Below, in pieces: positions 4,316 through 25,949 of a stretch of DNA of 25,961 nucleotides. Under the pieces are notes generated by a model. That model had not been told where the DNA came from. It did no database searches and saw nothing but the letters and a program-made list of their open reading frames with translations. The stretch's first letter is position 1; every line of letters starts with the position of its first letter. The stretch comes from a virus: positions 1-25,961 of the IMG/VR virus record IMGVR_UViG_3300047557_003367. The stretch is one strand, 5' to 3'. The position numbers and the translations under genes are program-made.

Positions 4316-4584
4316 TAGAATTCGTATATTTGTATATGTAAGTCCTTTGTTCCTTTTATTAACCTATGGTAGGTGTTCTTTGGTATAAATATTACATCTT
4401 TTAGTAACTGTGGTACTTCATCGTCAAATTGGAATTTCCAATCAGTATCACCAATCACTGTTACTTGCCTATCTCTTCTATCTCTATGCCAAACCAGTTC
4501 ATCCTCATCAACATCTTGTGAGAATGTTCTTACAATTAAATTGTTTTCCCTTATTTGACTATAAGGACTAACTTGCTCAGTCAC
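4315..4584 (-). CDS. Small cupin-like protein
   Basis: This 89-aa protein has a single-domain cupin outline. VWHRDRRDRQ (residues 31-40) gives His33 and acidic/basic residues of cupin motif 1. A Gly turn at IGDTDWKFQF and IPKNTYHRL (67-75) give His73 of motif 2. Cupins bind a metal and act as small oxygenases, isomerases or sensors, and the substrate here is unknown. It starts with GTG at 4584, overlapping the ferritin TAG by one base, and ends overlapping the start of the TM microprotein. The close coupling to ferritin may point to iron handling, which is inference. Confidence 0.65.
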   Translation of the reverse strand: MTEQVSPYSQIRENNLIVRTFSQDVDEDELVWHRDRRDRQVTVIGDTDWKFQFDDEVPQLLKDVIFIPKNTYHRLIKGTKDLHIQIYEF

Positions 4585-5096
4585 TACCCAAAGTATTGAT
4601 TTTCGTAATAAAGAACGTCTAACTTATTGTTAATATCAACTAATTCTGCTCCATTTAATAGAGTTGCGTATTCAGCTACAGATTGTGTTTGCCCAATTCT
4701 CAATTCTTGTAAGAAATCAAAAGTAGCCATATCACCTGGGAATATCTCTGCAGAGTTTGCATTGTATGCTAAGAATAAGTTATACTCCAATTGGTATGCT
4801 TTATTCACAATGTCAACTAGTGAAGAGAAAGTAGGTTGCATATTAACTGCAGGGATGGTTGGAACTACATTCCAATCTACTAAATACTTCTGTACTTTTT
4901 CAGCATGCTCTAATTCATTAGCTGCTTCTTTAGCAAAAAATGCTGCTGCTTTTAAGTATGCTTTTTCTTCACACCAGTTTGATGCATTTCTGTAAAAGTA
5001 ATGAGCTGTATACTCATCACCTATTCTCTCGTTAAGTAATTCAATTACTTCTCCTGATAGAGTTTGTGGTTTTAAAATTTGTTGTGTTATATCCAT
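4584..5096 (-). CDS. Ferritin-like iron-storage protein
   Basis: This 170-aa protein is the usual bacterial ferritin length. The ferroxidase residues align with E. coli FtnA at a nearly constant offset: Glu28 and Tyr35 in helix A, Glu61-x-x-His64 in helix B (NELEHAEK), Glu104 in helix C and Gln138 in helix D (GQTQSVAEY, with Glu142 nearby). The enzyme would oxidise Fe(II) and store iron in a 24-mer shell. It is unusual in a phage and sits inside a run of virion or accessory genes, directly coupled to a cupin gene. It could protect phage or host from Fe/H2O2 stress, hold iron for the infection, or be part of the virion. ATG at 5096 follows an A-rich leader without Shine-Dalgarno. Confidence 0.88.
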   Translation of the reverse strand: MDITQQILKPQTLSGEVIELLNERIGDEYTAHYFYRNASNWCEEKAYLKAAAFFAKEAANELEHAEKVQKYLVDWNVVPTIPAVNMQPTFSSLVDIVNKAYQLEYNLFLAYNANSAEIFPGDMATFDFLQELRIGQTQSVAEYATLLNGAELVDINNKLDVLYYENQYFG

Positions 5097-5112: not shown

Positions 5113-5673
5113 TTACCAATATCCTGAGAAGTTTTTACTTCCTCCTAATGATTTCCAATATCTTCCTATATTACATGACCAGTATCCTGGACTTGTTTTG
5201 TCTTTCTTTTTTGCACATTGGTGACGAGCAGCAAACGCAGCTCTTGCTCCTGGTTCCTTTATCTTTACTGTTAAGTTTCCTGAGTCACCGAAGTTAACTT
5301 TCTTTACATTACCTGTTTTTGGATTCTTAACATAAACGAAGAACTTTTTAGGACCTCCTCTTTTTGGTTTGTTTAGTGCAACATCCTTTCCCTTGTATTC
5401 TGCTTCGTCTAATTCCTCATCAACCATTGGAAGATCTAGTGGAACTTTATTTCCTTCGAATACACCATACTCTCCAATATCAGTTTCTCTTAGTAGCTTT
5501 TCGTCTTGTTCGTTTAGTTCAATTTTACCGTCTCTAAGAGCTTGTCTTGCTTCAGCGAACAATTGCACAAACGAGTCTGAGGAATACCTGTAGATACACT
5601 CAGACAACGTCAGTTTGTTGTCTAAGTGGTATTGCAGTGTTGGTAGCCCAACTATCTCTTGTAATTTTATCAT
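5113..5673 (-). CDS. Phage protein with C-terminal HxC/C (YWSC) domain
   Basis: This 186-aa protein has two parts. The N-terminal about 100 residues are acidic and helical (FAEARQALRDGK, MVDEELDEAEY). The C-terminal domain, from about 102, is basic: KPKRGGPKKFFVYVK, NFGD, then RHQC with His151 and Cys153, and YWSC with Cys167, followed by aromatic-rich GRYW. I recall a similar RHxC...YWSC domain at the C-terminus of many marine phage proteins near head genes, but its function is unknown to me. His151/Cys153/Cys167 could bind a metal. The LDE-Ala site at 89-91 would fit a prohead protease cut between the two halves. The ATG overlaps the upstream stop by four bases (ATGA). Confidence 0.75.
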   Translation of the reverse strand: MIKLQEIVGLPTLQYHLDNKLTLSECIYRYSSDSFVQLFAEARQALRDGKIELNEQDEKLLRETDIGEYGVFEGNKVPLDLPMVDEELDEAEYKGKDVALNKPKRGGPKKFFVYVKNPKTGNVKKVNFGDSGNLTVKIKEPGARAAFAARHQCAKKKDKTSPGYWSCNIGRYWKSLGGSKNFSGYW

Positions 5674-6110
5674 AAGAAATCTTTTTTAAAGTACCTACCC
5701 TCTATATTGTCATTTATATAGTTTGTATGCGGTTCAATTACTTCGTTAATAAATAGGAATTTATTCTCGTAATAAGTTAGCAGTTTCTTTGTAGGTACAA
5801 AGATAAGAATTTCTCTTGAGAATTCCGACTGCTTTCCTTCTTTTATTAACTGTTTTATTTCTGGATTGGATCCGTAATATGTTTTCCAGTCTGATTCTTT
5901 TACTACTTGTTTCTTTTTACTTGCTCTCTTATCTGTTAATGCTGCTAGTTCTTTTTTACCTAACGGTTTATTTTGAACAGATATTAACTGCTTTTTTCCT
6001 AAGTACTTTCTACCGGTTGGTATGTGTGTTATCTCATAGATAAACCCGAACGGTTGAGGTTCGGGCATATCTGTAAGTTCTTTTATTTCGTTTTGTTTAT
6101 ATAACCACAT
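5670..6110 (-). CDS. GIY-YIG-like endonuclease domain protein
   Basis: This 146-aa protein carries FIY at residues 23-25 and YLG at 36-38 (GFIYEI...GRKYLGKK), the two strands that define the GIY-YIG nuclease fold. These are followed by a DWKTYYGS motif, a Glu-bearing helix (YYENKFLF) and a final asparagine-rich segment (NYINDNIEGRYF). Such short stand-alone proteins occur in T4-like phages as homing-type or repair nucleases. No DNA-binding module beyond a Lys-rich linker (DKRASKKK) is visible. It lies immediately after the tail fibre gene, a common place for mobile endonucleases, and overlaps the next gene by four bases. Whether it is an active homing enzyme cannot be told. Confidence 0.7.
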   Translation of the reverse strand: MWLYKQNEIKELTDMPEPQPFGFIYEITHIPTGRKYLGKKQLISVQNKPLGKKELAALTDKRASKKKQVVKESDWKTYYGSNPEIKQLIKEGKQSEFSREILIFVPTKKLLTYYENKFLFINEVIEPHTNYINDNIEGRYFKKDFL

Positions 6111-6117
6111 TTGTTTT

Positions 6118-8118
6118 TTATCTTACTTGTTGTACTGTAACTATAATTGGTGGTGCTGCTGGATAGTTTCCTGAAGCTGCTATATACTCTAGTGTTGAGT
6201 TTGCAGCATTACTTTGGTGTGCTATTTCGTAATAATCTCCTGCTGTACTTGCGTAATCAATTATATCCACAGTCATTAGCTCGTTTGAGTTGTTTGGTAA
6301 AGTATTTACTGATGTTGAGTTAGCTATATTTGCTCCATTCTTTTTAAACCATAGATAAAAGTTTGCTGTTCCAGATCCTTGAGCAAGCTGTGCTGTAAAC
6401 TGTATATTGTAGTATCCTGGGTTTGCTACAGTAATTCTACTACCACTTACAATTGATACTCCATTTGCTACTGCTGTATCTGATAACAGTGCTGAACCTG
6501 AAGTTCCGTTCGCTACTGTTATACTTGCAGTATGGTAGAACATACCATGGTTAAACTGTTTAATTCCTCCTACATATAAATCATTCTTAATTGCAACTGA
6601 ACCTGAGAAGTCGAACGAACCTGAGTCTGGGTGTAGTGAATTTTTAAAGTTTAATTTGTATTGCGAACCTGACTGTACTGTGATAGTGTATCTGTTTGAT
6701 GTGTCAGGCCATTGCGTCATCGTAATACCGTCATTAGAACCAGATCCTATTATATTTAAAGTTGTATCGTAGATTCCGTAGTTTTGGCTTATATGATTTA
6801 GCTGAACTTTTCCTGATGTGTCTATTTTGATTCCGTCAGTTCCATACCCTTCTTGAACCCAGTTACCTATTGTTAACCTGTTTGCACTATCTCTAAATAT
6901 TGCATAACTTGATGTAGATCCTTGTGTTGCTGATCCAAAGTAGATTGGTCTGTCATCTGCCAGTACCACACTACCAGTTACTCTTAATGATCCTGTTATT
7001 TGAAATTGCGAACCTGATGCAAATACTAGATTACTTCTATTACCGGTAGATGTACCATTACCTATGATAAAGGCTGATCGTGCTGATGATGATACATTAA
7101 ATTGACCTTGTACGTGTTGATATGAACCGGATGCTACTGTATTGAATCCTTCAGCATGAGAGGCAAGGCTTAGTGCTCGTGTACCTGCTCCTTCTGCATG
7201 TGAAGCAAGCCCTGATGCTATAGTTTGAGTACCTTCTGCATGTGAGTAATCTTCTGATGCTGATGTTTCATTTCCTTCAGCATGTGACCAGTCTCCGAGT
7301 GCTACTGTTAGGTATCCTTCAGCATGTGAGAAGGTTCCTGATGATATTGTTTGATCACCTTCAGCGTGAGAATAGGCTCCTATTGCTTGGGTAATTTGTC
7401 CTTCAGCGTGTGAATGATCTCCTATCGCTGATGTTGAATTTCCCTCAGCATGTGAGTACTGTCCTGTTGCTATTGTATTATCTCCTTCTGCATGGGAATA
7501 TGAACCTGATGCAATAGTGTATGATCCTTCAGCATGTGCTCCATATCCTTCAGCAGTTGTTGAAACACCCTCAGTATGTGATCCTTCACCATTAGCGTTT
7601 GTTGTTAATCCTTCTGCGTGTGATGATGCACCTTGTGCTATATTAGCATTTCCTTCAGCATGGGAATAGGTTCCTAATGCTTGACTTGCTACACCTTCAG
7701 CGTGAGAATAAGACCCTGTTGCTATAGTTAGATACCCTTCGGCATGTGAACCAGAATTTCTAGCTTGAGTTTGTCTTCCTTCAGCATGAGAATGCCAACC
7801 TACAGCTACTGTTGCAGATCCTTCTGCATGAGAATTTAATCCTGTTGCTGTTAATCCTGCTGATCCTTGCTTAAATGATCCTGTAATTGTTACATCACTA
7901 TATCTACTTATATCAGCAGCTGATGCTGTCCAAAGAGTACCTCCTGGTAATGTTATTGATGAACTTACCACCGGTATACCTAGAGCACTACTTCCTGTCT
8001 TGAATAAGGTTATTGCACCACTTCCTAAGGATGCTGAGTAGAAGAACGAGGTAAAGTTGGTATCTACTTGCGTAAATGTTAATGCTGAGCCTGTGTCGGT
8101 TCTTAGTGTAATTGCCAT
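6118..8118 (-). CDS. Trimeric tail fibre / receptor-binding protein with SHAEG repeats
   Basis: This 666-aa protein starts with a short virion-attachment region (1-95; MAITLRTDTGSALTFTQVD), followed by seventeen 14-residue repeats of the SHAEGxxTxAxGxx type (96-333) and a degenerate eighteenth. Such repeats form left-handed parallel beta-rolls as in YadA-type head domains. A conserved-looking seam SAFIIGNGT and RSNLVFASGS comes next, then FQITGSLRVTGS. The C-terminal about 140 residues (GYYNIQFTAQL, NFYLWFKKNGANI) resemble a C1q/TNF-like jelly-roll, probably the receptor-binding tip. It is the last gene of the baseplate-fibre block, and its ATG overlaps the stop of the preceding structural gene (TAATG). 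A trimer projecting from the baseplate is expected. Confidence 0.85.
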   Translation of the reverse strand: MAITLRTDTGSALTFTQVDTNFTSFFYSASLGSGAITLFKTGSSALGIPVVSSSITLPGGTLWTASAADISRYSDVTITGSFKQGSAGLTATGLNSHAEGSATVAVGWHSHAEGRQTQARNSGSHAEGYLTIATGSYSHAEGVASQALGTYSHAEGNANIAQGASSHAEGLTTNANGEGSHTEGVSTTAEGYGAHAEGSYTIASGSYSHAEGDNTIATGQYSHAEGNSTSAIGDHSHAEGQITQAIGAYSHAEGDQTISSGTFSHAEGYLTVALGDWSHAEGNETSASEDYSHAEGTQTIASGLASHAEGAGTRALSLASHAEGFNTVASGSYQHVQGQFNVSSSARSAFIIGNGTSTGNRSNLVFASGSQFQITGSLRVTGSVVLADDRPIYFGSATQGSTSSYAIFRDSANRLTIGNWVQEGYGTDGIKIDTSGKVQLNHISQNYGIYDTTLNIIGSGSNDGITMTQWPDTSNRYTITVQSGSQYKLNFKNSLHPDSGSFDFSGSVAIKNDLYVGGIKQFNHGMFYHTASITVANGTSGSALLSDTAVANGVSIVSGSRITVANPGYYNIQFTAQLAQGSGTANFYLWFKKNGANIANSTSVNTLPNNSNELMTVDIIDYASTAGDYYEIAHQSNAANSTLEYIAASGNYPAAPPIIVTVQQVR
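7120..7833 (-). repeat. Seventeen tandem 42-nt units encoding SHAEG repeats
   Basis: Each unit encodes 14 residues beginning Ser-His-Ala-Glu-Gly, with SHTEG and AHAEG as variants. The fixed residues recur exactly every 42 bases while the positions between vary. At DNA level the core is conserved enough to allow slippage or recombination that would change fibre length. Confidence 0.9.
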
Positions 8119-22546: not shown

Positions 22547-22567
22547 ACTGTATTTATTTTATAAATA

Positions 22568-23550: not shown

Positions 23551-24288
23551 CTAAATGTTCTTTAATACTGCTGCTAATCCTGGAGAGCTGATTGTAGGCT
23601 TTCCTGTTTGTGTCTTTCCTTTAACAGGTTTTTGAGCAGCAGCTGGTTGTGTCTTTTTCCATCTATCATATTCAACTTTTGATGCTAAGAAATCTGCTTG
23701 GTGCAGAATATGTGTTATATTACATCTTAGCTTTGAGTCAGGGTTGAATGTAATGTAGTATGGCTTATTAACATCATCATATAATCCATCATGTAGCTTG
23801 ATTGCTAGATATTCATTCTCACTTAGTGGTATTCCTGCTTGTTGCAGAATGAATAATGATCTGTCCTGGATTAGCATAAAGCTAAGATCTGTATTGTTGC
23901 TATACATTTCACCTAACTTATCCTTTCTCCACTGATCTGTTTGAGGAAGATATCCTGGTTGTCCTGGTAATCCTAATTTACCTAAGTCATGGTTAAGTGC
24001 TGAGAATACTAATTCCTCATCTGTAAAAGTAATATCTGCTCCCATCTCATCCCAAAGGCTCTTTACTTTTAAAGCACCTTGGACTACTCGGTTAACATGC
24101 TCTACATACCCTCCTGGAAAGCAGTTGTGGTAATGTTGTTTACCTGAAGCAGGAGCTGTTATCATCTCCTCAGCAAGTGATTCATATAAAGCTAGTAACT
24201 TAGCCCTTCTTTCACCTTGGATAAACGTCTCAACTATTTTAAGATGTCTTTCCCAGTTTCTTTGTATCTGTTCTGCCGATAAGTTCAT
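23551..24288 (-). CDS. HD-domain metal-dependent phosphohydrolase
   Basis: This 245-aa protein has an N-terminal His64 (YVEHVNRVV), the HD pair at His100-Asp101 (ALNHDLGKLG), a further His in IKLHDGLYDD and a final Asp region (ILHQADFLASK). These residues form the HD-superfamily metal site. Family members hydrolyse nucleotides, cyclic nucleotides or nucleotide second messengers, and the substrate here is not readable. The C-terminal tail from about 210 (QPAAAQKPVKGKTQTG) is Lys/Ala/Pro-rich and likely disordered. Its ATG shares a base with the upstream TAA (TAATG). A role in nucleotide metabolism or in blocking host signalling is possible. Confidence 0.82.
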   Translation of the reverse strand: MNLSAEQIQRNWERHLKIVETFIQGERRAKLLALYESLAEEMITAPASGKQHYHNCFPGGYVEHVNRVVQGALKVKSLWDEMGADITFTDEELVFSALNHDLGKLGLPGQPGYLPQTDQWRKDKLGEMYSNNTDLSFMLIQDRSLFILQQAGIPLSENEYLAIKLHDGLYDDVNKPYYITFNPDSKLRCNITHILHQADFLASKVEYDRWKKTQPAAAQKPVKGKTQTGKPTISSPGLAAVLKNI

Positions 24289-24461
24289 TAGTCCTGTGTT
24301 TCTGTGTTAAGTAATGTGTGGATATCTCCAATAGCATCTAATACTACTTGGATTTTCTCATAAGCTAGATTGAGGTCTCCCTTATGAATATTGTATCCTA
24401 CCTTTTTTACCTCAGACTCTAGTCGCTCTAGTTTTGTTTGTACTACGTCTTTGTTTCTCAT
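24288..24461 (-). CDS. 57-aa helical small protein
   Basis: This short gene starts with ATG at 24461-24459 and ends with TAA at 24290-24288, overlapping the HD gene start (TAATG). The protein, MRNKDVVQTKLERLESEVKK and then LAYEKIQVVLDAIGDIHTLL, is an amphipathic two-helix hairpin with heptad Leu/Val. I recognise no family, although the form resembles small phage proteins that bind a partner. It directly follows the A/T-only block, with a TATAAATA octamer ending four bases before its ATG, and is the first gene of the downstream late-looking run. Confidence 0.72.
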   Translation of the reverse strand: MRNKDVVQTKLERLESEVKKVGYNIHKGDLNLAYEKIQVVLDAIGDIHTLLNTETQD

Positions 24462-24463
24462 AG

Positions 24464-24541
24464 TTATTTATATTATTTATTATTAATATTATTATATTTA
24501 TATATTATATTATTTATATAAATTAATTATAAATAAAAAAT
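24464..24541 (-). promoter_or_regulatory. A/T-only block with three TATAAATA (late promoter-like) octamers
   Basis: On the minus strand TATAAATA, the T4 late promoter consensus recognised by gp55, occurs at 24465-24472, 24495-24502 and 24511-24518. One copy is also on the plus strand at 24528-24535. The block is about 78 bases of only A and T, so chance matches are expected to some degree. With a gp55-like gene just downstream, these are candidate late promoters for the hub/baseplate operon. The block could alternatively be a melting or origin element. Confidence 0.45.
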
Positions 24542-24559
24542 ACGAAATAAAATTCATAA

Positions 24560-24622
24560 ATGCAACAGTGGATTTATCGAGGAGATCGAGGTGGCGAGTT
24601 ACGCGGCGGATTGTATATATAA
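24560..24622 (+). CDS. Possible 20-aa plus-strand ORF in a GC-rich island
   Basis: ATG at 24560 to TAA at 24622 encodes MQQWIYRGDRGGELRGG and LYI. It is the only plus-strand frame lying in true non-coding space, and it coincides with a GC-rich island (about 24561-24613) that differs sharply from the flanking A/T block. A plus-strand TATAAATA lies 24 bases before the ATG. A tandem 9-mer (atcgaggag/atcgaggtg) causes part of the repetitive RGD/RGG sequence. No family is known, and it may be non-coding RNA or chance. Confidence 0.25.
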   Translation: MQQWIYRGDRGGELRGGLYI

Positions 24623-24644
24623 ATCATACCCTCCTACCTCACAA

Positions 24645-25280
24645 TTAATACAAAATAACATTTCCCACCATATGTAAAGCTCCTGTCTCGGTAACAACAT
24701 CCAACGCAGTCAAAGGATCGATTTTAAAAAATTCCCTACTATTTCCTTGATCAGAGTCTACCCTGTATTGAGCTAGGGCAGTATGCACATGCTGCTCTAT
24801 TTTGTACGCACTACCCTTACTAACCGGTATTGCATATTTAACAACCCATTCATGCACCGTTGCTGTGGCGTTTATTGACGTAACTCTCGCATTAACATCC
24901 TTAGTTGTTATACCTACCTTAACAAGGTTAGGATATCCGGGATTTATGAGGATATACACGTACTCTACTTCATCCTTCACCTTATCTTTAATTGATCTGT
25001 TTTCAATACCGTATAAGTATCTCCACGTATACTGGAAACATTCCCCATGCGGTATTTGCTCTAAATACTCAGTAACGTATTTTGCACTAAAAAAGTCAAT
25101 GATTTTATCTGGGGATATGTGAGGGACTTTGATTAGAAGTTCACTATAGTTATCCTTCCACAATTGTCCGTACTCGTTATTGACAGGTTTTAGCTGATTA
25201 TAACTTACATCGATCAAAGTAATTTGCCCTGCGTTTTGTAGTTGGACTGCGGTATCGTAGTCTATCTTAACGTAATTCAT
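24645..25280 (-). CDS. T5orf172/MUG113-type (GIY-YIG family) protein
   Basis: This 211-aa protein has an unassigned N-terminal about 100 residues and a C-terminal T5orf172-like domain. Its motifs are YVYILINPGYPNLVKVGIT (107-125), Arg132, KIEQHVHTAL (160-169) and the hallmark REFFKI (182-187). In the GIY-YIG superfamily, VYI and KVG correspond to the GIY and YIG strands, and Arg132 and a Glu in helix 2 are typical active-site positions. Such proteins are common in phages and are thought to act on DNA, but a biological role is not established for most. Its codons end in C more often (TAC, ACC, GTC) than in the baseplate genes, suggesting a different origin or expression class. It is followed by the non-coding region at 24462-24644. 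Confidence 0.75.
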   Translation of the reverse strand: MNYVKIDYDTAVQLQNAGQITLIDVSYNQLKPVNNEYGQLWKDNYSELLIKVPHISPDKIIDFFSAKYVTEYLEQIPHGECFQYTWRYLYGIENRSIKDKVKDEVEYVYILINPGYPNLVKVGITTKDVNARVTSINATATVHEWVVKYAIPVSKGSAYKIEQHVHTALAQYRVDSDQGNSREFFKIDPLTALDVVTETGALHMVGNVILY

Positions 25281-25282
25281 AA

Positions 25283-25480
25283 CTATCTAAAAAATGATAA
25301 AATAAAGCTAACAATAAACACAGTAACGTTGATAGGCCACAACAAAATAACCGCAAGTATTTCTTTAGCGGTGTAAGGTTCACTACTTTGCGTTGCTCTA
25401 ATAATTTGGTCAATTAAAAAAGCACTTACAAATCCAATACCTAGATACCAAGTGGCATAGTACAAAATTAAATTCATCAT
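25283..25480 (-). CDS. 65-aa two-TM membrane protein
   Basis: The sequence MMNLILYYATWYLGIGFVSAFLI forms one hydrophobic segment (about residues 3-23). After a short polar loop (DQIIRATQSSEPYTAKE), LAVILLWPINVTVFIVSFIL forms the second (about 43-62), with both ends expected on the same side of the membrane. Small two-TM proteins of phages can be holins, antiholins or host-membrane modulators, but the loop and context do not show which. Two ATGs are adjacent (25480 and 25477). It is separated by two bases from the T5orf172-like gene. Confidence 0.65.
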   Translation of the reverse strand: MMNLILYYATWYLGIGFVSAFLIDQIIRATQSSEPYTAKEILAVILLWPINVTVFIVSFILSFFR

Positions 25481-25517: not shown

Positions 25518-25949
25518 TTATTGCAACTCGCAACTATTATGTTTAAAAAATACGTTATAGAACTTTAAAAGTATTGCGCAGTGTTCGTACATCTCCTTTT
25601 GCTCGAAGAATTGTATCATTTGTGATAGGGCATAATCAATCGATTGTTCTCCGAATATATCTTTGTACTGATACAACGTTTCTACGTGCGTTATATCGAT
25701 CCTACTGATGTATCTCATCAATTGAATAAAATACTTGGTTTTAATCGAATCTTGTACTTCATCAAACCGTTGTCCGTATCTATTTCGATACATCATTTCC
25801 ATGATGTAGTAATTCTCAACTCCTTTTACTGCCATACCAAACAAAATGTATGAATCCTGGAGAATATCTGATACACCATGCTCTTTATATACTTGTTCAT
25901 CTCCGATTTCAAATAAATCAAACACGTTTGCTTTATCGAGTTTTTTCAT
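25518..25949 (-). CDS. Unknown helical protein, 143 aa
   Basis: The protein begins MKKLDKANVFDLFEIGDEQV and continues with the helices FGMAVKGVENYYIMEMMYRN, RFDEVQDSIKTKYFIQLMRY, and a final MIQFFEQKEMYEHCAILLKFY. The last segment (FEQKEMYEHCAILLK) resembles an endpiece I recall in several phage hypothetical proteins. No enzyme motif or membrane segment is visible. It is the most upstream complete gene of the window. The 37-base spacer to the next gene (25481-25517) is AT-rich with nothing else recognisable, and its leader (25950-25961) continues outside the window. Confidence 0.7.
   Translation of the reverse strand: MKKLDKANVFDLFEIGDEQVYKEHGVSDILQDSYILFGMAVKGVENYYIMEMMYRNRYGQRFDEVQDSIKTKYFIQLMRYISRIDITHVETLYQYKDIFGEQSIDYALSQMIQFFEQKEMYEHCAILLKFYNVFFKHNSCELQ

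Follow-up and report, generated by a model that had tools for sequence, protein, structure and literature searches.

The window analysed here, the whole of a 25,961-nucleotide stretch (positions 1 to 25,961 of IMG/VR virus record IMGVR_UViG_3300047557_003367), contains at positions 24,462 to 24,644 an intergenic interval in which a block of pure A/T sequence adjoins an abruptly GC-rich stretch, and this raises the question of which signals the interval carries and which genes they would serve. The first-pass annotation, made from the letters of the sequence, had read it as an array of tandem T4-type late-promoter octamers beside a GC-rich insert. We consider it likely that the interval instead places a host-type early promoter and its leader ahead of the gene run that encodes a late sigma factor, with a conserved DNA site alongside (Table 1).

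The interval and its phage group

DNA and protein matches of the window lead to Flavobacterium phage immuto, and the window is a member of the T4-related phages around it, a Flavobacterium-type group that is common in metagenomes and little studied. The minus strand carries all window open reading frames (ORFs) longer than 130 aa. The interval is flanked by a T5orf172-domain gene and a 57-aa gene, the latter being the start of the gene run that contains the gp55-like sigma gene, which is the fourth gene downstream of the interval. Relatives were taken as the best 80 of 88 viral-contig stretches encoding a relative of the phosphohydrolase-like gene. Their gene order is near-constant: genes of ∼142 aa and 65 aa, the T5orf172 gene (∼210 aa), the interval, the 57-aa gene, the phosphohydrolase-like gene, a 96-aa gene and the sigma gene. 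A T5orf172 homologue occupies the same place in 67 of the 80 loci, the other 13 being without a T5orf172 match.

The window shares its gene order, promoter motif and GC-core element with Flavobacterium phage vB_FspM_immuto (Immutovirus, MW353175), where the place of the interval marks the boundary at which a region rich in small genes gives way to the structural genes. The two differ in that the stretch from the element to the 57-aa gene holds, in immuto, a 217-aa gene (gene 149) and a second copy of the promoter, both lacking in the window, and in the element core, which is the consensus TTGCGCGGCGATTC in immuto and CCGCCGCGTAACTCG in the window. A counterpart of the 217-aa gene stands at this position in 45 of the 80 loci (for example L001:3167-3820, minus strand), and each case of the immuto type has a promoter copy on both sides. 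Pfam searches gave no match for the 217-aa gene or for the phosphohydrolase-like gene of the window.

Table 1. Features in and around the interval (window coordinates).
Feature	Position	Strand	Remarks
T5orf172-domain gene, 211 aa, upstream neighbour	24645..25280	-	Pfam PF10544, E 4.3e-14
Conserved GC-core element	24595..24625	-	Window form GATTTATATATACAATCCGCCGCGTAACTCG; relatives' consensus TATATA-N-TTGCGCGGCGATTC
Putative early promoter, host-sigma type	24537..24566	-	GTTG 24566-24563, 20-nt spacer, TATTTT 24542-24537
A/T-rich leader of 57-aa gene	24462..24536	-	75 nt, 1.3% GC
TATTTATA in gene direction (plus-strand TATAAATA)	24528..24535	-	Letters of the late-region octamer
57-aa gene (58 codons including stop), first after promoter	24288..24461	-	In 78 of 80 relative loci
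Phosphohydrolase-like gene, 245 aa	23551..24288	-	phrog_28876, metal-dependent phosphohydrolase, E 6.5e-10
gp55-like late sigma gene, 237 aa	22568..23281	-	Best structural match T4 gp55
TATTTATA in gene direction, putative first late promoter	22560..22567	-	Directly after sigma gene, 13 nt before next start

The GTTG-N20-TANNTT motif and the A/T-rich leader

Where the GC-rich part meets the A/T-only part stands GTTG-N20-TATTTT, a putative promoter of a conserved type that the first-pass annotation missed. The shared GTTG-N20-TA box is visible in the sequences upstream of the 57-aa gene in the relatives. Among the 74 sequences (73 loci and the window) that have the expected ATG and 150 nt upstream, 56 of them distinct, GTTG-N20-TANN[TC]T is present in 55 of the distinct sequences, the exception being L079. 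With other spacers the full pattern gave one match at 18 nt, five at 25 nt and none at the remaining lengths from 15 to 24 nt. The −7 box of the window, TATTTT, is a weaker match than the TATATT, TATCTT or TAACTT usual in the relatives. The A/T-only block starts exactly at this −7 box, and the leaders of the 55 distinct sequences have a median length of 66 nt and 11.6% GC. Upstream of the 57-aa gene in L079 and L080 the leader is a long TAA microsatellite and no GTTG-N20 promoter was found, and both loci have an extra 108-aa ORF after the T5orf172 gene.

The motif recurs along the genomes of the group. On the gene strand of immuto GTTG-N20-TANNTT occurs 46 times, compared with a mean of 2.8 in 10 Markov simulations, and spacers of 19 and 21 nt give three and two matches, respectively. 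All five near-complete genomes show an excess on the gene strand (42, 51, 42, 43 and 46 matches, against 12, 7, 7, 9 and 6 on the other strand), while the pattern read backwards, used as a control, reached 26 matches on a single strand of G001 and otherwise stayed at 3 to 13. Twenty-four of the 46 immuto sites fall at 60–77 kb, amid many small genes, and the last two of this cluster, at 76190 and 76900, are homologous to the window interval; the other 22 comprise 14 before 60 kb and 8 beyond 76.9 kb. The gene strand of the window has two matches, beginning at 25534 and 24566, the former (GTTG-N20-TATATT, 25534-25505, minus strand) lying upstream of the 65-aa gene at 25283-25480.

Bacteroidetes (sigma-A) promoters have a TTG at −33. 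The corresponding feature, a TTG ∼20 nt upstream of the −7 box, is found in 55 of the 56 distinct sequences and in the window too, and with the TA aligned to that of the host motif the phage GTTG would end at about −33 and the TAnnTT box would lie at −12. The flavobacterial −7 box is given as TAnnTTTG in PMC9723704. The window TATTTT resembles this sigma-A box in its TAnnTT part, whereas the final G of TTTG is absent from the immuto sites (GTTG-N20-TANNTTTG in 0 of 46) and the phage motif differs in its fixed GTTG and its spacer of exactly 20 nt. A literature search covering titles and the starts of abstracts turned up no recognisable promoter description for these phages.

The conserved GC-core element

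Positions 24563-24613 have 54.9% GC, which places them in the top 0.08% of 51-nt stretches in the window, and the longer segment 24560-24622 has 46.0% GC (top 3.4%). The GC-rich stretch, its tandem 9-mer (ATCGAGGAG/ATCGAGGTG, 24576-24593, 8 of 9 positions identical) and an intact plus-strand ORF of 20 codons (24560-24622) are all present as the first-pass annotation had listed them, although the 9-mer is not conserved, occurring in 1 of 68 sequences, that of the window. What is conserved is an element with a GC core after the T5orf172 gene, carried by all 68 sequences compared (67 loci plus the window; the 13 loci without a T5orf172 match were left out of the count, and the span searched was 450 nt instead of 200 nt for L079 and L080, which have the extra ORF in between). 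This occurrence at one and the same place rules out the earlier description of the GC-rich part as an insert, and an origin as foreign DNA likewise.

The core is TGCGCG in 61 of the sequences and a variant in seven (L025, L028, L032, L035, L037, L053 and the window). Among 43 distinct elements TGCGCG stands at the aligned place in 35, where a G follows in 34 and conservation at each of the six bases after it, CGATTC, is 74–83%. The element is nearly single-copy per genome: in 15 records of the group TGCGCGG has one copy in 12, two in G007 and none in G003 and G005, which have variants; a sixteenth record (G014), unrelated and GC-rich, has 45 copies. The exact gapped pattern of the element matched 40 viral-contig stretches, once in each, and the GC stretch of the window itself, used as a pattern in viral contigs, gave no matches. 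A host-derived site was considered and rejected, because the two matches in the bacterial and archaeal collection come from unrelated taxa and ∼3 are expected by chance (our estimate, assuming equal base frequencies). L129, found through a window-like variant, is an unrelated contig without a DNA match to the window. The shorter GCGCG occurs three times in the 160 kb of immuto, and the other two sites, at 64788 and 42488 of MW353175 (both minus strand), are in intergenic gaps on the opposite strand; both read AATTTGCGCGTG and later GCCCCCTCC and are possible cousins of the element.

One function to be weighed is a replication origin in which a protein binds the core and the A/T block melts. 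Occurrence once per genome in most cases (a single TGCGCGG in 12 of the 15 records of the group), the fixed place, the adjoining A/T-rich DNA, the DnaB helicase and primase annotated in immuto and a left half of the element that is partly repeated in tandem in seven loci would all suit an origin. However, in 39 of the 68 sequences a whole gene of ∼217 aa separates the element from the A/T-rich leader, no initiator gene was identified, and the fourfold-site skew of immuto does not change sign at 76 kb, a weak test of an origin since the genes run one way. We regard an origin as unlikely. The tandem copies are those of L038, L044, L054, L055, L057, L058 and L061, where the left half (TATATAAAAATCTTGCG or similar) occurs twice in tandem, ∼40 nt apart, after the T5orf172 stop codon.

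Since free-standing homing genes lie beside their sites, the element could also be a target or relic of the neighbouring T5orf172 nuclease gene (GIY-YIG-type), and the core does begin 6 to 91 nt after the stop codon of that gene in 48 of 49 distinct sequences, the remaining one being L079, whose core was mispicked. We think this improbable, as the more distant homologues in L084, L085 and L086 are without a GC core in the 350 nt downstream and the gene keeps a fixed position instead of turning up sporadically (67 of 80 loci, with 13 left unjudged). That the GC-rich part acts instead as RNA or peptide, whether a terminator, a small RNA or the 20-codon frame, is highly improbable even though that frame is intact in the window: the window fold has a z of −0.41 on both strands with no stable hairpin at the GC-rich part, the mean fold z of 43 distinct elements is +0.28 and +0.36, an Rfam search gave no match near the gathering score, the peptide matched only the sequence of the window itself and, by chance, two stretches of 5 residues at E 9.5, the frame has no counterpart in the fetched loci that would make it a gene, and the gap from ATATA to TGCGCG has six lengths (6 to 11 nt), so that no single reading frame crosses it in all sequences.

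Since no single frame crosses it and no RNA fold stands out, the element is a DNA site, conserved at the boundary of the early-type and structural regions. Our guess is that it may be bound by a protein that acts on neighbouring promoters or on replication. Core and GTTG are 35–36 nt apart in 25 of 49 sequences and otherwise 18–44 nt (the set of 49 treats L079 as a case with a wrongly picked core and no promoter); the observed values of 18, 19, 29–32, 35–36, 41 and 43–44 nt give no support to a helically phased activator site, which was therefore set aside.

Octamer orientation, the gp55-like sigma and the proposed switch

The A/T-only run is 79 nt long (24464-24542); the next longest in the window is 21 nt, and the longest seen across 200 Markov simulations of the window is 30 nt. 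The T4 late octamer is TATAAATA, and the run does contain it where the first-pass annotation saw it, three times on the minus strand (24465-24472, 24495-24502 and 24511-24518) and once on the plus strand. Both strands of the window together hold 13 copies against a shuffle mean of 5.68, a number that none of 100 shuffles reached, so the earlier expectation of a count above that of shuffled sequence was borne out. Within the block the excess is only modest, because against its own dinucleotide make-up four copies compare with a mean of 0.86 (P=0.011) and at least three in minus orientation have P=0.0098. Matches of enteric phages over the block (E 0.4 and above) are weak and were taken as low-complexity.

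The T4 late element is printed as TATAAAT in PMC3037559, and according to PMC2988020 a late consensus like that of T4 is common to several other T4-related phages. In an unbiased count of 8-mers in the 60 nt upstream of 89 immuto starts at 76 to 160 kb, the top 8-mer is TATTTATA, the reverse complement of the T4 octamer, with 17 occurrences against 1.15 expected. TATAAATA is not enriched upstream of the same starts (3 against 1.84, rank ∼2820), and all three of these copies sit inside TATTTATAAATA. Elsewhere in immuto TATTTATA occurs 5 times against 0.82 (99 starts, 1–60 kb) and twice against 0.64 (44 starts, 60–76 kb), and 25 of its 30 copies on the gene strand are at most 80 nt before a start. 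Run on 46 T4 starts as a control, this method ranks TATAAATA first (12 against 0.65; TATTTATA 5 against 0.42). Pooling the relatives gave 293 late-side upstream sequences, related rather than independent, with 47 copies of TATTTATA against 2.63 (rank 19, among 8-mers derived from conserved coding starts) and 4 of TATAAATA against 4.51; the 378 early-side sequences likewise hold more TATTTATA than expected (34 against 6.46). The window alone, too small a sample, has 3 copies of TATTTATA against 0.30 and 3 of TATAAATA against 0.65. Five near-complete genomes have 26, 37, 29, 29 and 30 copies of TATTTATA in gene direction and 5, 17, 11, 9 and 15 in the opposite one. The backwards sequence ATATTTAT, with 22 to 31 copies on the gene strand of these genomes, is no independent control because it overlaps the same motif.

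A T4-type array of minus-strand TATAAATA promoters read by a gp55-like sigma, as first supposed for the A/T block, agrees with the three gene-strand copies at P ∼0.01 against block composition and with the gp55-like sigma encoded nearby, but is very unlikely given that a method which recovers TATAAATA from T4 finds it unenriched in the late regions of immuto and the pooled relatives, and that it occurs in only 4 of 56 distinct leaders. These copies are probably low-complexity by-products. The TATTTATA of the leader region is itself kept in 1 of the 56 distinct upstream sequences, that of the window. Of 48 distinct sequences, 45 carry TATTTATA directly after the sigma gene and one carries TATAAATA there. 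In the immuto gaps before 119017, 128591 and 149798, read by eye, a terminator-like hairpin is followed by the octamer and then the gene start, an order that fits an octamer serving the downstream gene. On these counts the putative late octamer of this phage group is reversed relative to T4, whose TATAAATA is replaced by TATTTATA in gene direction, and scans of such genomes with the T4 octamer would call late promoters on the wrong strand.

The presence of a gp55-like sigma downstream, also claimed at first reading, is supported by structure comparison. The model of the protein drew on 36 of the 55 distinct relatives found (mean pLDDT 76.5, pTM 0.56), and structural re-alignment placed T4 gp55 (7d7c_F) first, with a Z of 10.1, although Z ∼10 can arise by chance with helical proteins, and an rmsd of 5.6 over 129 residues. 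The remaining re-alignments shown are almost only to sigma factors, and the model has the sigma domain-2 fold. Foldseek alone gave nothing under E 0.001, its second row being a sigma factor at E 0.16. The family phrog_234 (late sigma transcription factor) matched 13 of 37 members of the sigma set with a best E of 8e-4, and by record 3 of 9 with a best E of 2e-5, a model that also responds in 7 of 14 control genomes; phrog_17206 (function not assigned) matches 21 of the 37, and the window protein itself has no family match at E 0.001. A search of the sigma profile against PDB sequences returned one unrelated match (E 0.26), which was discarded. The protein is accordingly taken as gp55-like from its model, sequence support being weak. 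The system resembles the T4 late promoter with gp55 in having an A/T box of 8 bp a short way upstream of late genes, together with a gp55-like sigma. In contrast to T4, the immuto annotation lists neither a sliding clamp nor a clamp loader nor gp33; a defining feature of gp55 is a C-terminal hydrophobic/acidic clamp-binding motif, as stated in PMC2988020.

From the motifs, their positions and conservation and the sigma-like fold, all read from sequence, we infer transcription starts, timing, the pairing of sigma with motif, co-transcription and any role of the element as follows. Host RNA polymerase would read the GTTG-N20-TATTTT promoter on the minus strand (24566-24537) and start just downstream of the −7 box, giving an almost purely A/T leader of ∼70 nt. 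Such a leader would suit a host that translates without Shine–Dalgarno sites, and Flavobacterium is described as lacking Shine–Dalgarno sequences in PMC6847099. The transcript would reach the gp55-like sigma gene by way of the 57-aa, phosphohydrolase-like and 96-aa genes, and that sigma may then use TATTTATA in gene direction, the first copy lying directly after its own gene. The GC-core element just upstream would mark the border, and a protein bound there might act on neighbouring promoters or on replication.

The interval would thus be an early-to-late switch point, in that an early promoter would make the late sigma. The first-pass idea of a regulatory node near the early/late border is retained, while its choice of motif and of orientation is not. 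A more far-reaching combination, in which the GC core is a single master cis site at this border (a replication origin or a late-expression launch site, so far undescribed) and the T4 octamer is reversed so that a gp55-family sigma reads TATTTATA and not TATAAATA, seems to us rather unlikely. The preferred reading, a host-type promoter ahead of the sigma gene run, offers a testable early-to-late circuit in which the late sigma would use a reversed octamer, and the comparison also points to a strongly conserved non-coding site.

Elsewhere in the window, a SegE-like GIY-YIG protein is encoded at 5670-6110 (minus strand; PF19835, E 3.5e-27), directly after a tail-fibre-like gene with YadA-head repeats (PF05658) at 6118-8118 (minus strand), and a ferritin-like protein gene lies at 4584-5096 (minus strand; PF00210, E 1.7e-19).
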